This document shows positions 14,640 through 18,566 of a stretch of 64,000 nt of DNA, in pieces. Every line of letters starts with the position of its first letter. Within the stretch, counting starts at the first letter, position 1. The position numbers were made by a program, and so were the translations under genes. A model generated the notes under the pieces. It made no database searches. It was not told where the DNA came from and saw only the letters and a list, made by a program, of their open reading frames with translations. Source of the stretch: Malaciobacter molluscorum LMG 25693 (GTDB taxonomy: Bacteria; Campylobacterota; Campylobacteria; Campylobacterales; Arcobacteraceae); assembly GCF_003544935.1 (NCBI RefSeq), contig NZ_CP032098.1, forward strand, positions 1,302,001 through 1,366,000. Direction: 5' to 3'.

Positions 14640-15539
14640 TTATAGAATTCTTGAAATTACATATGTTGTTAAAAAAGATACTACTATTCCATATCCTACA
14701 ATTGCAGTACTTAGTCTTGGTGCAAGTCCTACCATAGCTGCAATTGCACCTGCTGTAATCATAGGTGACATACCTGCTTCTAAAATTGAAACATCACTTG
14801 CAAGTGTATGTTGCCATCCTAGAATAACTGCAAATATATATGCAATAATAGGTCCTATTATTAGTTTTATTAATAGTGCAATGCTTAATGGTTGTAAGTC
14901 TGATTTTGGGAGTTTTAGTTTAAGTTGAAGCCCAACTGCAACTAAAGCTACAGGAATAAGAGTAACAGAAAAATCTTTTAATATACTAGTTAATAAAGGT
15001 GGAAAATCTACACCTAGAAAACAAAATGCTATAATTAATGATAAAAATGGAGGAAAAGTTAAAACTTTTCTAACAATAATTCTTGGAGTTGTCTTTTTAT
15101 TATCTGTATATAAAGCAGTAATTAAAGTACCATAAGTTGCCAATGCAATAAAAGTTCCTAATTGATCATAAATAATTACATAAGGAATAGCTTTTTCACC
15201 TATATACATACTTATTAAAGGGATACCTGCAATTGAACTATTTGATAAAACAGCAACTAAAAGTAATGATCCTGTAACTTCTTTTGACCAATTTAAATAT
15301 TTTGAAAAAACTAAAACTACAATAGCTGTTAAAATCATAACAACCCATGCAATAATAGCTGGTATAATAATGTCAATTGATATAGTAAGTTTAGGTACTT
15401 GTAATAAAATTATTGCTGGTAGTGAGATATAAATAATATATTGATTTAATATTATTGGAGTCTCATGGGAAAAAATTTTGAATTTTTGTAGAGCATATCC
15501 AATAATTATTGCAACAATAATTAAGGAAAAGTTTTCCAT
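14640..15539 (-). CDS. AEC family (auxin efflux carrier-like) transporter
   Basis: The 299-residue protein has about ten hydrophobic helices in two five-helix halves, and the family's central LVAVLSNSSIAGIPLI and C-terminal EAGMSPMITAGAIAAMVGL segments. These carriers export or exchange organic anions or other small molecules. Its ATG overlaps the TAA of the HxlR gene (TAATG), so it is co-translated with that regulator and probably exports a compound the regulator responds to. Confidence 0.85.
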   Translation of the reverse strand: MENFSLIIVAIIIGYALQKFKIFSHETPIILNQYIIYISLPAIILLQVPKLTISIDIIIPAIIAWVVMILTAIVVLVFSKYLNWSKEVTGSLLLVAVLSNSSIAGIPLISMYIGEKAIPYVIIYDQLGTFIALATYGTLITALYTDNKKTTPRIIVRKVLTFPPFLSLIIAFCFLGVDFPPLLTSILKDFSVTLIPVALVAVGLQLKLKLPKSDLQPLSIALLIKLIIGPIIAYIFAVILGWQHTLASDVSILEAGMSPMITAGAIAAMVGLAPRLSTAIVGYGIVVSFLTTYVISRIL

Positions 15540-15916
15540 TAATTTCTTCTATTTTTTTCTGTATAGCACATATTTTCTTCTGTTATTTTTCCAAATTCTT
15601 TAACATATTCTACACCCCAATTATACATCTCTTCCAATAATGGTTTTAATCTTTTCCCAGCTGGTGTTAAAGAGTATACAACTTTTGGTGGAACTTCAGG
15701 AAAAACTTCTCTGTTTATTATATTTTTTTCTTCTAATTCTTTTAATTTAACAGTTAATGTTTTTTGTGTAATGTCCGAAATTTCTTCATGTAAGTCTTTA
15801 AATCTTTTATCTTCTTGAATTAAATGCCAAATTATTCCTAATTTCCATCTATCATTGAAAATATCTAAAGTAACACTTATCGAACAATTAAATTGTTTAT
15901 TATTTATATAATACAT
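15539..15916 (-). CDS. HxlR family redox/electrophile-type regulator
   Basis: This ~125-residue winged-helix regulator has the family pattern: a conserved Cys near the N terminus (NCSISVTLDIFNDRWKLGIIWHL), FKDLHEEISDITQKTLTVKLKELEE for the recognition helix region and VVYSLTPAGKRL for the wing. Relatives such as YodB, CatR and HypR sense quinones or disulfide stress through that N-terminal Cys. The start is at 15916 (AAAGGA upstream), not the ATG at 15934. It overlaps the AEC gene and is divergent from an EamA exporter, with a palindrome between them. Confidence 0.88.
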   Translation of the reverse strand: MYYINNKQFNCSISVTLDIFNDRWKLGIIWHLIQEDKRFKDLHEEISDITQKTLTVKLKELEEKNIINREVFPEVPPKVVYSLTPAGKRLKPLLEEMYNWGVEYVKEFGKITEENMCYTEKNRRN

Positions 15917-15964
15917 AATTCGTCCTTTCCACATAGAATTATATCATAATAAATATAAAACTCT

Positions 15965-15992
15965 TATACTTACCTAAAGTAAAGTAAGTATA
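15965..15992. promoter_or_regulatory. Palindromic site, probable HxlR operator 1
   Basis: TATACTTAC (15965-15973) and GTAAGTATA (15984-15992) are perfect 9-bp inverted arms with a 10-bp spacer. It sits between the divergent HxlR and EamA genes. The same arms, spacing and almost the same spacer recur at 16957-16980, which makes chance unlikely. Confidence 0.7.
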
Positions 15993-16042
15993 ATTTAAGT
16001 AAATTATAGAGATAATTCTCTATTAGTTTATAAAGGATATAA

Positions 16043-16951
16043 ATGAAAACAATGATATTTAATGAAAATAAGGACTCTAAAGATAATAAATATTACATAT
16101 TTATTTTTCTCGCGATGGTATCATGGGGAATTGCATGGCCAGCAAGTAAAGCTGCTACAATGCATTCAAGTCCTGAAATTGCTGCATTTTGGAGATATGC
16201 AATATCTTTTATTTCAATAATTCCAATACTTTTTTATTTAAAGATATCTTTTAAAGCTGATAAAATAGGAATAATATATATGTTTATTGCAGGCATATTA
16301 AGTGCAGGATTTAATTATTCAACTTTTTTAGGTTTAAGTTATGGACAAGCAGGTTATGGTGGAACAATTATGACTTCATTAGCTCCAATATTTACATATT
16401 TTTTATCAATTATATTTTTAAAAAATAAGGTGACTCTTATGCAGTCAATTGCATTATTCATAGGTATTTCAGCAACAATTATTTTATTGAAAGTTCCAAC
16501 AGAAGGTATTCATTTTTTAAATGTAAATACAGCTTTTTTTGTAATTTCTGCTTTATGTTGGGCTTTTATGACAATTTTATCTAAGAAAAGCTCTGCTCAT
16601 GTAGATCCCTTACTTTATACGTTAATAATATTTTTTATAACAACAATTGTTAATTATATAATTGCAATACCTTTTCATCCATTTTTAATATTTAATTATG
16701 ATGAAACTTTTTGGTTAACAATTTTATATGTGGGTCTTTTTTCAGGTACTTTTAGTACAACACTTTTTTTTGTATCAATAAAAAAAATAGGTGCAGATAA
16801 AACTGCAACATTTATGTTTATAATACCAGCTGTTGCTATTTTATCAAGTAATTTAATTTATCATGAAAAAATATTGTTTTCGACTATACTTGGATGTATA
16901 TTATCTTTTCTTGCAGTAATTATATATAATAAAAGAAAAGTAAAACAATAA
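16043..16951 (+). CDS. EamA/DMT family permease
   Basis: The 302-residue protein has ten predicted membrane helices in two EamA repeats. Each repeat shows the expected features, such as FLAMVSWGIAWPASKAA near the N terminus and ISALCWAFMTILSKK at the start of the second half. These proteins usually export metabolites or amino acids. It is divergent from the HxlR/AEC pair across the palindrome and precedes the quinone reductase operon, so it is probably part of the same response. Confidence 0.87.
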   Translation: MKTMIFNENKDSKDNKYYIFIFLAMVSWGIAWPASKAATMHSSPEIAAFWRYAISFISIIPILFYLKISFKADKIGIIYMFIAGILSAGFNYSTFLGLSYGQAGYGGTIMTSLAPIFTYFLSIIFLKNKVTLMQSIALFIGISATIILLKVPTEGIHFLNVNTAFFVISALCWAFMTILSKKSSAHVDPLLYTLIIFFITTIVNYIIAIPFHPFLIFNYDETFWLTILYVGLFSGTFSTTLFFVSIKKIGADKTATFMFIIPAVAILSSNLIYHEKILFSTILGCILSFLAVIIYNKRKVKQ

Positions 16952-16956
16952 TTATA

Positions 16957-16980
16957 ATACTTACCAAAAGTAAAGTAAGG
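16957..16980. promoter_or_regulatory. Palindromic site, probable HxlR operator 2
   Basis: Core CTTAC (16960-16964) / GTAAG (16975-16979) with the same 10-bp spacing as operator 1. The shared stretch is ACTTACC, one variable base, then AAAGTAAAGTAAG. It lies about 50 bases upstream of the quinone reductase gene. Confidence 0.68.
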
Positions 16981-17027
16981 GAAAATTAATCTAGTAAGAT
17001 ATATAATTTCAAAAAAAAGGATTTATA

Positions 17028-17618
17028 ATGAAAAAAATATTAATAATAAATGCACATCAAAAATATGAAAGTTTTGCCGAAGGTAATTTAACTCAGAGTT
17101 ATATAGATAAAGCAAACAATTTTTTTACAAAAAATGGTTTTGAAGTTAAAAATACTGCAATAGATAAAGGATATGATGTTAAAGAAGAGTTAGAAAAATT
17201 TGCTTGGGCTGATTATGTACTTTTTCAATATCCTGTTTATTGGATGAGTTTGCCTTGGATTTCAAAAAAATATATTGATGAAATATGTTCAGGTGGCGCA
17301 GGAACAGTTACTTATGAAAGTGATGGAAGAAGTAGAACTGATGCATCTAAAAAATATGGTAGTGGTGGATTATTAAAAGGCAAAAAATATATGCTTAGTA
17401 TTACATATAATTGTCCAGAAAGTGAATTTGATAATAAAGATGGATTCTTTGAAGGTTTATCTTTAGATCAAGCAAATTTTGCAGTACATAAAACTTTTCA
17501 ATTTTGTGGATTAGAGCAATTAAAAACATATTCTGTACATGATGTATATAAAGGTGATTTAAACTTAGAAAAAGAGTTAGAAAAGTTTGAAGATATATTA
17601 AAAGATAATTTTTTATAA
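17028..17618 (+). CDS. mdaB: MdaB-type NAD(P)H-quinone oxidoreductase
   Basis: The 196-residue flavodoxin-like protein matches the MdaB group well known in Helicobacter: N-terminal KKILIINAHQKY for FMN/FAD phosphate binding, QYPVYWMSLPWISKKYIDE near residue 67, and the glycine-rich YGSGGLLKGKKY. It should reduce quinones by two electrons with NAD(P)H, avoiding semiquinones. It is first of three genes that run to 18566 with 11- and 10-base gaps, behind a palindrome shared with the HxlR promoter. Confidence 0.9.
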   Translation: MKKILIINAHQKYESFAEGNLTQSYIDKANNFFTKNGFEVKNTAIDKGYDVKEELEKFAWADYVLFQYPVYWMSLPWISKKYIDEICSGGAGTVTYESDGRSRTDASKKYGSGGLLKGKKYMLSITYNCPESEFDNKDGFFEGLSLDQANFAVHKTFQFCGLEQLKTYSVHDVYKGDLNLEKELEKFEDILKDNFL

Positions 17619-17629
17619 AAGGAAAAGAA

Positions 17630-17923
17630 TTGAACAATATAATAGTAGTAGCTAAAATTAAAGTAAAAAAAGAGTATAACCAAGAGATATATAAAGTATT
17701 AGAAACTTTACATGAACAAACACACAAAAATGATGATGGTTGCATTCAATATGATTTACATAAAAATTTAGAAGAAGAAAATTCTTATACATTTATTGAA
17801 ACATGGGAAAATGAAGATTTTTTAAATAAACATTCAAATAAAGAACATTTTAAATCATTTGTTTCAAGTATTGAAAATAAAGTAGAACATTTAGATATTC
17901 AGAAATTAGAAAAAATAAAATAA
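17630..17923 (+). CDS. Antibiotic biosynthesis monooxygenase (ABM) family protein
   Basis: This 97-residue ferredoxin-like-fold protein shows the family's core CIQYDLHKNLEEENSYTFIETWENEDFLNKH and the preceding LETLHEQTHKNDDG. Small ABM proteins such as YgiN act on quinols or act as cofactor-free oxygenases. In Escherichia coli ygiN sits with mdaB, matching the order here. Start is TTG at 17630 with AAAAGG upstream, 11 bases after the MdaB stop. Confidence 0.85.
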   Translation: MNNIIVVAKIKVKKEYNQEIYKVLETLHEQTHKNDDGCIQYDLHKNLEEENSYTFIETWENEDFLNKHSNKEHFKSFVSSIENKVEHLDIQKLEKIK

Positions 17924-17933
17924 AGGATAGTTT

Positions 17934-18566
17934 ATGAGTAAAGAAGAATTTTTAAAAGCAATGGATTTTAGACATGCTTGTAAAGTTTTTGATGATACAA
18001 AAAAAATCTCAAAAGATGATTTAGAGTTTATTTTAGAAGTAGGGCGAAAATCACCTTCTTCTTTTGGAATGGAACCTTGGAAATTTTTAGTGATTCAAAA
18101 TAGTGAATTAAAACAGAAAGTAAGACCTGTTTGTTGGGATCAAGTTCAAATTACATCTTGTAGTGATTTAATTATTATTTTAGCAAAAATTGAAGATTTA
18201 AAAGTTGAAACTGGTATTCCTGAAAAAAGATTTGCAAGAAGACCTATGCCTCAAGAAAAAAGAGATTTTTATGTAAATCTTTATGCAAATCACTTAAAAG
18301 ATACTTTAAGTAGTGATAAAAATATTTATGAATGGACAGCAAAACAGACTTACATAGCAGCAGGTAATATGATGACAGCAGCAGCCTCTATTGGAATTGA
18401 TTCTTGTCCTATTGAAGGTTTTGAAAAAGATAAATTAGAGAAAGTTCTAGAATTAGATACTACAAAATATCAAGTTGCATTGGTTTTACCTTTTGGATAT
18501 AGATTAAATGAACAATCAGAACAGCTAAGATTAAATTTTGATGAAGTAGTTGAATATATAAAATAA
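17934..18566 (+). CDS. NAD(P)H-dependent nitroreductase (NfsB-like)
   Basis: The 210-residue protein belongs to the oxygen-insensitive nitroreductase family: FRHACKVFDDTKKISKDDLEF at the start, RKSPSSFGMEPWKFLVIQN as the FMN-binding segment, and DSCPIEGFEKDKLEKVLEL near the C terminus, close to NfsB/YfkO-type proteins. It would reduce quinones or nitro compounds. It closes the probable electrophile-detoxification operon and ends in a strong hairpin. Confidence 0.88.
   Translation: MSKEEFLKAMDFRHACKVFDDTKKISKDDLEFILEVGRKSPSSFGMEPWKFLVIQNSELKQKVRPVCWDQVQITSCSDLIIILAKIEDLKVETGIPEKRFARRPMPQEKRDFYVNLYANHLKDTLSSDKNIYEWTAKQTYIAAGNMMTAAASIGIDSCPIEGFEKDKLEKVLELDTTKYQVALVLPFGYRLNEQSEQLRLNFDEVVEYIK

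Follow-up and report, generated by a model that had tools for sequence, protein, structure and literature searches.

The best match to our regulator among solved structures is Bacillus subtilis HxlR, which is reportedly called a positive regulator in the title of a 2005 paper by Yurimoto. B. subtilis HxlR (structures 7bzd, 7bze, and 7bzg; PMC7835342) positively regulates the formaldehyde fixation genes hxlAB and senses formaldehyde through a Cys11-CH2-Lys13 bridge. HypR (YybR; structures 4a5m and 4a5n), also from B. subtilis, is a DUF24 activator of a flavin oxidoreductase, controlling hypO and turned on by thiol modification. B. subtilis YodB and CatR and Staphylococcus aureus QsrR are likewise DUF24 proteins, thiol sensors that repress quinone reductases and nitroreductases. 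In Campylobacter jejuni, the PF01638 regulator RrpA positively regulates the divergently transcribed mdaB, and mdaB-rrpA respond to quinones; in an rrpA mutant, mdaB was about 2-fold down by RT-qPCR, although the change seen by RNA-seq was no longer significant once corrected (PMC8765430). PMC4508579 is relevant to HxlR in Campylobacter, and our comparisons also draw on PMC6798810, PMC8063818, PMC6943732, and PMC4776306. Our searches of the literature, with RegPrecise and subscription papers outside their reach, found nothing on HxlR with Arcobacter and no prior account of the regulon described here, which may therefore be in print elsewhere.

Here, we analyzed a 64-kb stretch (the window) of a 2.80-Mb Arcobacteraceae genome in which an hxlR-type gene lies beside genes for transporters and reductases, and we compared the locus with the rest of the genome and with related genomes.

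Locus and operator sites

The first-pass annotation had proposed a candidate HxlR regulon defined by two near-identical palindromes, and both are present without mismatches at the expected places (Table 1). Operator 1 reads ACTTACCTAAAGTAAAGTAAG and operator 2 reads ACTTACCAAAAGTAAAGTAAG, and the claimed equal spacing holds, with CTTAC and GTAAG arms 10 bp apart at both sites. The flanks of operator 1 lengthen its palindrome to 9-bp arms (TATACTTAC-N10-GTAAGTATA). The two sites share a 20-bp core, CTTACC[T/A]AAAGTAAAGTAA[G/T], for which the window contains no further match at up to three mismatches; by shuffling, the chance level for the core in the window is 0.02, and 0 of 100 shuffles reached two copies. 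Sites resembling operator 2 also precede mdaB in two other genomes (L065 in G004 and L071 in G005).

Table 1. Genes, operators, and predicted promoters of the locus, in window coordinates
Feature	Position	Strand	Remarks
AEC-type membrane transporter	14640..15539	-	Mem_trans/AEC, PF03547
HxlR/DUF24 regulator, 125 aa	15539..15916	-	PF01638
Predicted HxlR promoter	15938..15946	-	extended -10 TGATATAAT; 25 nt from operator 1
Operator 1	15968..15988 (core 15969-15988)	+	between divergent HxlR-AEC and EamA
Predicted EamA-operon promoter	15995..16016	+	TTAAG 15995-15999, -10 GATAAT 16011-16016; 22 nt after operator 1
EamA-family transporter	16043..16951	+	PF00892
Operator 2	16959..16979 (core 16960-16979)	+	upstream of mdaB-ABM-nitroreductase
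Predicted mdaB promoter	16986..17007	+	TTAAT, -10 TATAAT 17002-17007; 22 nt after operator 2
MdaB-like flavodoxin-fold NAD(P)H oxidoreductase	17028..17618	+	Flavodoxin_2, PF02525
ABM-domain protein	17630..17923	+	PF03992
Nitroreductase	17934..18566	+	PF00881

The gene names given earlier agree with the Pfam assignments. The ABM-domain protein is one that we take to be YgiN-like, and the nearest NCBIfam model for the nitroreductase is the oxygen-insensitive NAD(P)H nitroreductase, with a score under its cut-off. We place the HxlR start at the conserved Met at 15916 rather than at 15934, because the six codons that the longer reading frame adds show no conservation; operator 1 consequently lies 52 nt upstream of the HxlR start. 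The AEC start overlaps the HxlR stop (15534-15540), and thus a single transcript probably serves for translation of both proteins.

A genome-wide motif search placed the core at five positions with at most one mismatch. The three copies outside the window are identical (CTTACCTAAAGTAAAGTAAT; 351781, 1744972, and 2510254) and precede a KefF/KefG-like flavodoxin-fold reductase with a LysE exporter, an old-yellow-enzyme reductase (NamA-like), and a RarD-type EamA transporter. A sixth, weaker site, found via a wider motif, lies at 1035502 before LysE-PhzF. All six are upstream of quinone/electrophile enzymes or exporters. Candidates with two or three mismatches, among them 177435 (in a 561-aa open reading frame), 11239, and 606761, were dropped as regulon sites, these having no -10 box at offset 22; as a whole, the class with two to three mismatches in this genome shows no excess over a reversed control.

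Beyond this genome, a scan of named genomes yielded 49 loci with HxlR relatives, of which 44 are from Campylobacterota; the other five (Bacillus, Sebaldella, and three archaeal records) were dropped before counting. The operator lies upstream of HxlR in 42 of the 44 loci at a threshold of at least 14 of 20 bases, and in 38 at one of at least 17 of 20.

The HxlR protein

The window HxlR scores 105.2 bits on the Pfam PF01638 model for HxlR-like winged helix-turn-helix proteins (cut-off, 20.8), and its fold and family are evident from sequence. We rejected its filing as RrpA or RrpB given its NCBIfam scores of 73.4 bits against a cut-off of 185 for RrpA (NF047367), where genuine RrpA loci score 202 to 204 bits, and 91.6 bits against 175 for RrpB (NF047364). 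Among solved structures, it matches B. subtilis HxlR (7bze; E, 7e-31) and HypR (4a5m; 3e-22), and more weakly YodB (4e-18) and QsrR (about 1e-7). The closest named HxlR record is from Arcobacter sp. CECT 8985 (86%). In a tree of 106 HxlR proteins, one branch (support, 91) splits off 66 rows from RrpA and the paralogs in the same genome; because we picked these rows mainly for their resemblance to the window protein, because some (a few) have no good operator, and because few columns and long branches weaken the tree, we take it only as consistent with a distinct clade.

Cys11 is present in all 42 readable rows of 45 aligned orthologs, the other three being unreadable at that position owing to start-codon choice; the window protein has a second Cys near its C terminus. 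At position 13 the aligned rows carry Ile or Val, not the Lys13 of the B. subtilis bridge. We therefore rejected a formaldehyde sensor like that of B. subtilis, and quinones or other electrophiles are likelier signals than formaldehyde.

Promoter layout and mode of regulation

Counting as a -10 box any hexamer with at least five of the six bases of TATAAT, we found a fixed geometry on both sides of the operator. Of 42 loci, 32 have a target-side box that starts exactly 22 nt past the operator, and 35 have an HxlR-side box that starts exactly 25 nt from it. An extended -10 (TGN) is present in 32 of those 35 HxlR promoters, compared with TG in 1 of the 32 target promoters, which instead have TTAAGT at offset 6-11 and no recognizable -35 box. 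For sites away from HxlR, circularity was avoided by taking 20 nonadjacent sites by operator alone, with the -10 box unused in finding them; 16 have the box at offset 22, whereas other offsets average 2.3%. Two of the four exceptions are RarD sites, one in each of two genomes; the other two lie before a luciferase-like monooxygenase and before a nitroreductase with TACTAT. The RarD site (L005; L072 in G005) is a perfect operator copy in two species with TATAAT at offset 7, not 22, and this target may be controlled in the opposite sense, that is, repressed, or may not be regulated.

TTAAG-N11-TATAAT was rejected as a general promoter signal, since the window holds 17 matches against 15.1 expected, two of them at the sites described here. 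The three window promoters are predictions, that of the EamA operon from conservation. The fixed spacing could partly come from the copying of a whole promoter.

A site near -54 to -35, in constant phase before promoters that have no recognizable -35 box, is the arrangement that a class-II-type activator would require. The fixed operator-to--10 spacing and the placement of the site upstream of the core promoter are better explained by activation than by repression of the YodB type, and we consider it probable, taking the whole statement including activation, that an HxlR-family thiol sensor activates detoxification promoters through this operator. We infer the binding, the cysteine switch, the activation, and the ligand as follows. 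An HxlR dimer would bind the 20-bp quasi-palindrome CTTAC-N10-GTAAG, and Cys11, as family knowledge suggests, would react with quinones or other electrophiles. The modified dimer would occupy roughly -54 to -35 of target promoters, its center near -44.5 if transcription starts 6 to 7 nt after the -10 box, and would help RNA polymerase use promoters with TATAAT but no recognizable -35 box. EamA-mdaB-ABM-nitroreductase would thereby be switched on, as would the loci for the KefF/KefG-like reductase with LysE, the old-yellow-enzyme reductase, and LysE-PhzF elsewhere in the genome. Operator 1 also faces the HxlR-AEC promoter, which has an extended -10 of its own and is thus probably active at a basal level and autoregulated.

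The reverse mode, in which reduced HxlR would block both divergent promoters until Cys11 modification releases it, seems to us unlikely, although it deserves serious attention. YodB, QsrR, and CatR, of the same DUF24 superfamily, repress similar detoxification genes, and C. jejuni RrpB (PF01638) represses nfrA; the window protein scores higher on the RrpB than on the RrpA model, if under both cut-offs, and the RarD site is placed to cover a -35 region. Repression is harder to reconcile with a site that stands upstream of the core promoter at an exact 22-nt spacing before unrelated targets, or with target promoters lacking both an extended -10 and a recognizable -35 box, and the solved relatives closest to the regulator, HxlR and HypR, both activate.

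Conservation and co-occurrence with the HxlR clade

Under strict matching, sites occur in six of six genomes of the genus, and reversed-control matches in none of the six. The TTAC and GTAA arms are nearly invariant and core bases 10, 13, and 14 drift, as expected of a dimer binding site. The asymmetric core keeps one orientation toward the target; the inverted form occurs in L033 and L077/L105. When the operator was combined with TTAAG and TATAAT as a composite site, 64 of 104 genomes of the family contained it, compared with 4 of 104 for the reversed control.

The composite site tracks the HxlR clade, which is present in 67 of the 104 family genomes (best E ≤ 1e-40): 62 of these 67 have the site, against 2 of the 37 without the clade (Fisher, 6e-20). 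At the order level, 17 of the 23 genomes that have the clade carry the operator, against 3 of the 176 that lack it (6e-17), and outside the window's family the counts are 9 of 15 and 3 of 167; the clade cut-offs behind these comparisons, 1e-40 and 1e-45, were chosen after a gap in scores was seen. The five HxlR-bearing family genomes without a composite match include one (G075) with the core inverted. Two order-level candidates inside open reading frames (L112 and L120) were dropped as regulon sites. In one genus (f20 g27; L082-L090), most HxlR promoters have a shifted variant, TTACAT..CTAAAAGTATCGTAAGGA, and other promoters there retain the standard operator.

Judged on sequence, the assignment of this regulator to this site is very probably correct. 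A different transcription factor that binds the site, with HxlR as merely one of its targets, would account for three order-level genomes that have the site without a close HxlR, among them G025 and G143, whose sites precede a nitroreductase and MdaB; we consider it improbable, since site and clade occur together and are lost together across the 104 family genomes, the site stands in the HxlR divergent promoter at nearly all the Campylobacterota loci counted above, and none was found at the genome's other three HxlR genes. That the sites have no regulatory meaning, being copied pieces of promoters or random matches in AT-rich DNA, is scarcely credible: matches at three mismatches (18) hardly exceed the reversed control (11) in this AT-rich genome, but the strict matches and the composite site far outnumber their controls, and both arms are kept across families while inner bases drift.

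A different element, AAGTATGTACTTTTT, lies upstream of two of those three HxlR genes (L009 at 38182 and L011 at 2262811), and it has exact matches in the genome only at these two loci.

With HxlR assigned to the site, the candidate regulon is borne out by the six genome sites, by conservation, and by co-occurrence with the clade, and it is larger than first proposed.

Target genes

In 40 regions chosen from the family-level composite matches, a nonrandom sample favoring genomes with several sites, 41 of 44 composite sites precede a detoxification- or export-type gene or a similar one, and for 3 no gene was found. The targets are nitroreductase (12), MdaB (8), iron alcohol dehydrogenase (Fe-ADH; 4), luciferase-like monooxygenase (LLM; 3), KefF/G-like reductase (3), LysE (2), zinc-type quinone/alcohol dehydrogenase (ZnADH; 2), metallo-beta-lactamase-fold protein (MBL; 2), NfsA-like nitroreductase (2), and PhzF, EamA, and DoxX (1 each); some operons continue with glutathione peroxidase (GPx). 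The labels Fe-ADH, PhzF, LLM, GPx, DoxX, NfsA-like, and ZnADH come from scanned proteins of these loci, MBL and SDR were assigned by eye only, and "KefF/G-like," "NfsB-like," "YqhD-like," and "YgiN-like" reflect weak model hits or recall. Genes that recur divergent from HxlR are MdaB, ABM, nitroreductase, old yellow enzyme, EamA, and iron alcohol dehydrogenase, and AEC is frequently downstream of HxlR. The gene content supports the earlier suggestion of an electrophile detoxification set with exporters added.

We lean, with some reserve, toward a phylum-wide electrophile-stress regulon of Campylobacterota, in which a distinct HxlR clade would use one operator in exact phase to recruit RNA polymerase at promoters without a -35 box. 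If so, it would be the activating equivalent of the YodB/QsrR regulons, with a single switch for export and for quinone, nitro, enoate, and aldehyde functions. The precise operator and promoter layout would indicate how free-living and host-associated Campylobacterota except Campylobacter may cope with stress from quinones and aldehydes, and it predicts what many orphan flavoenzymes and exporters do.

Comparison with known systems

The first-pass annotation had likened the gene set to the YodB/CatR regulons. The likeness stands for the kind of genes controlled; it does not extend to the regulator, as HxlR and HypR are nearer and YodB and QsrR further off in sequence, or to the likely mode, the spacing being activator-like. 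The YodB site, TACT-N7-AGTA, also differs from the CTTAC-N10-GTAAG found here. The analogy should be replaced by activation of the HxlR/HypR/RrpA type.

A layout that looks like a repressor arrangement, as read from sequence, is found in another HxlR subgroup (L096, L100/L226, L215-L218, and L222) and contrasts with that of the window's clade. Its promoter reads CCTTTTGGTATGTATA...TTTTTAGTA...TTGAC, with the repeat abutting a canonical -35 TTGAC, and the L222 copy stands before MdaB-nitroreductase.

RrpA-mdaB of C. jejuni likewise pairs a PF01638 regulator that has a conserved N-terminal cysteine with a divergent mdaB (PMC8765430). RrpA is, however, a more distant relative of the window HxlR than are B. 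subtilis HxlR and HypR; its published repeat is TATCAT-N19/24 (PMC8765430), whereas here several operons share one operator. At six RrpA-type loci examined, for which two proteins were scanned and both scored above the RrpA cut-off, mdaB is divergent at three (L207, L210, and L211) and the full operator was not found. L210-L212 have in common CTTTACTTTTGG, which resembles one operator half in reverse and is therefore a hint, offered as a lead only, of common descent of the two systems.

HypR is likewise a DUF24 protein and has the activating mode proposed here; no comparable multi-operon operator set was found for it in our searches. B. subtilis HxlR has its sensing Cys11 in the same place as the window protein, and it serves formaldehyde fixation genes rather than quinone and nitro reductases (PMC7835342). 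The regulon described here offers a comparison case for how close relatives within DUF24 come to work as activators (HxlR, HypR, and RrpA) or as repressors (YodB, QsrR, and RrpB).
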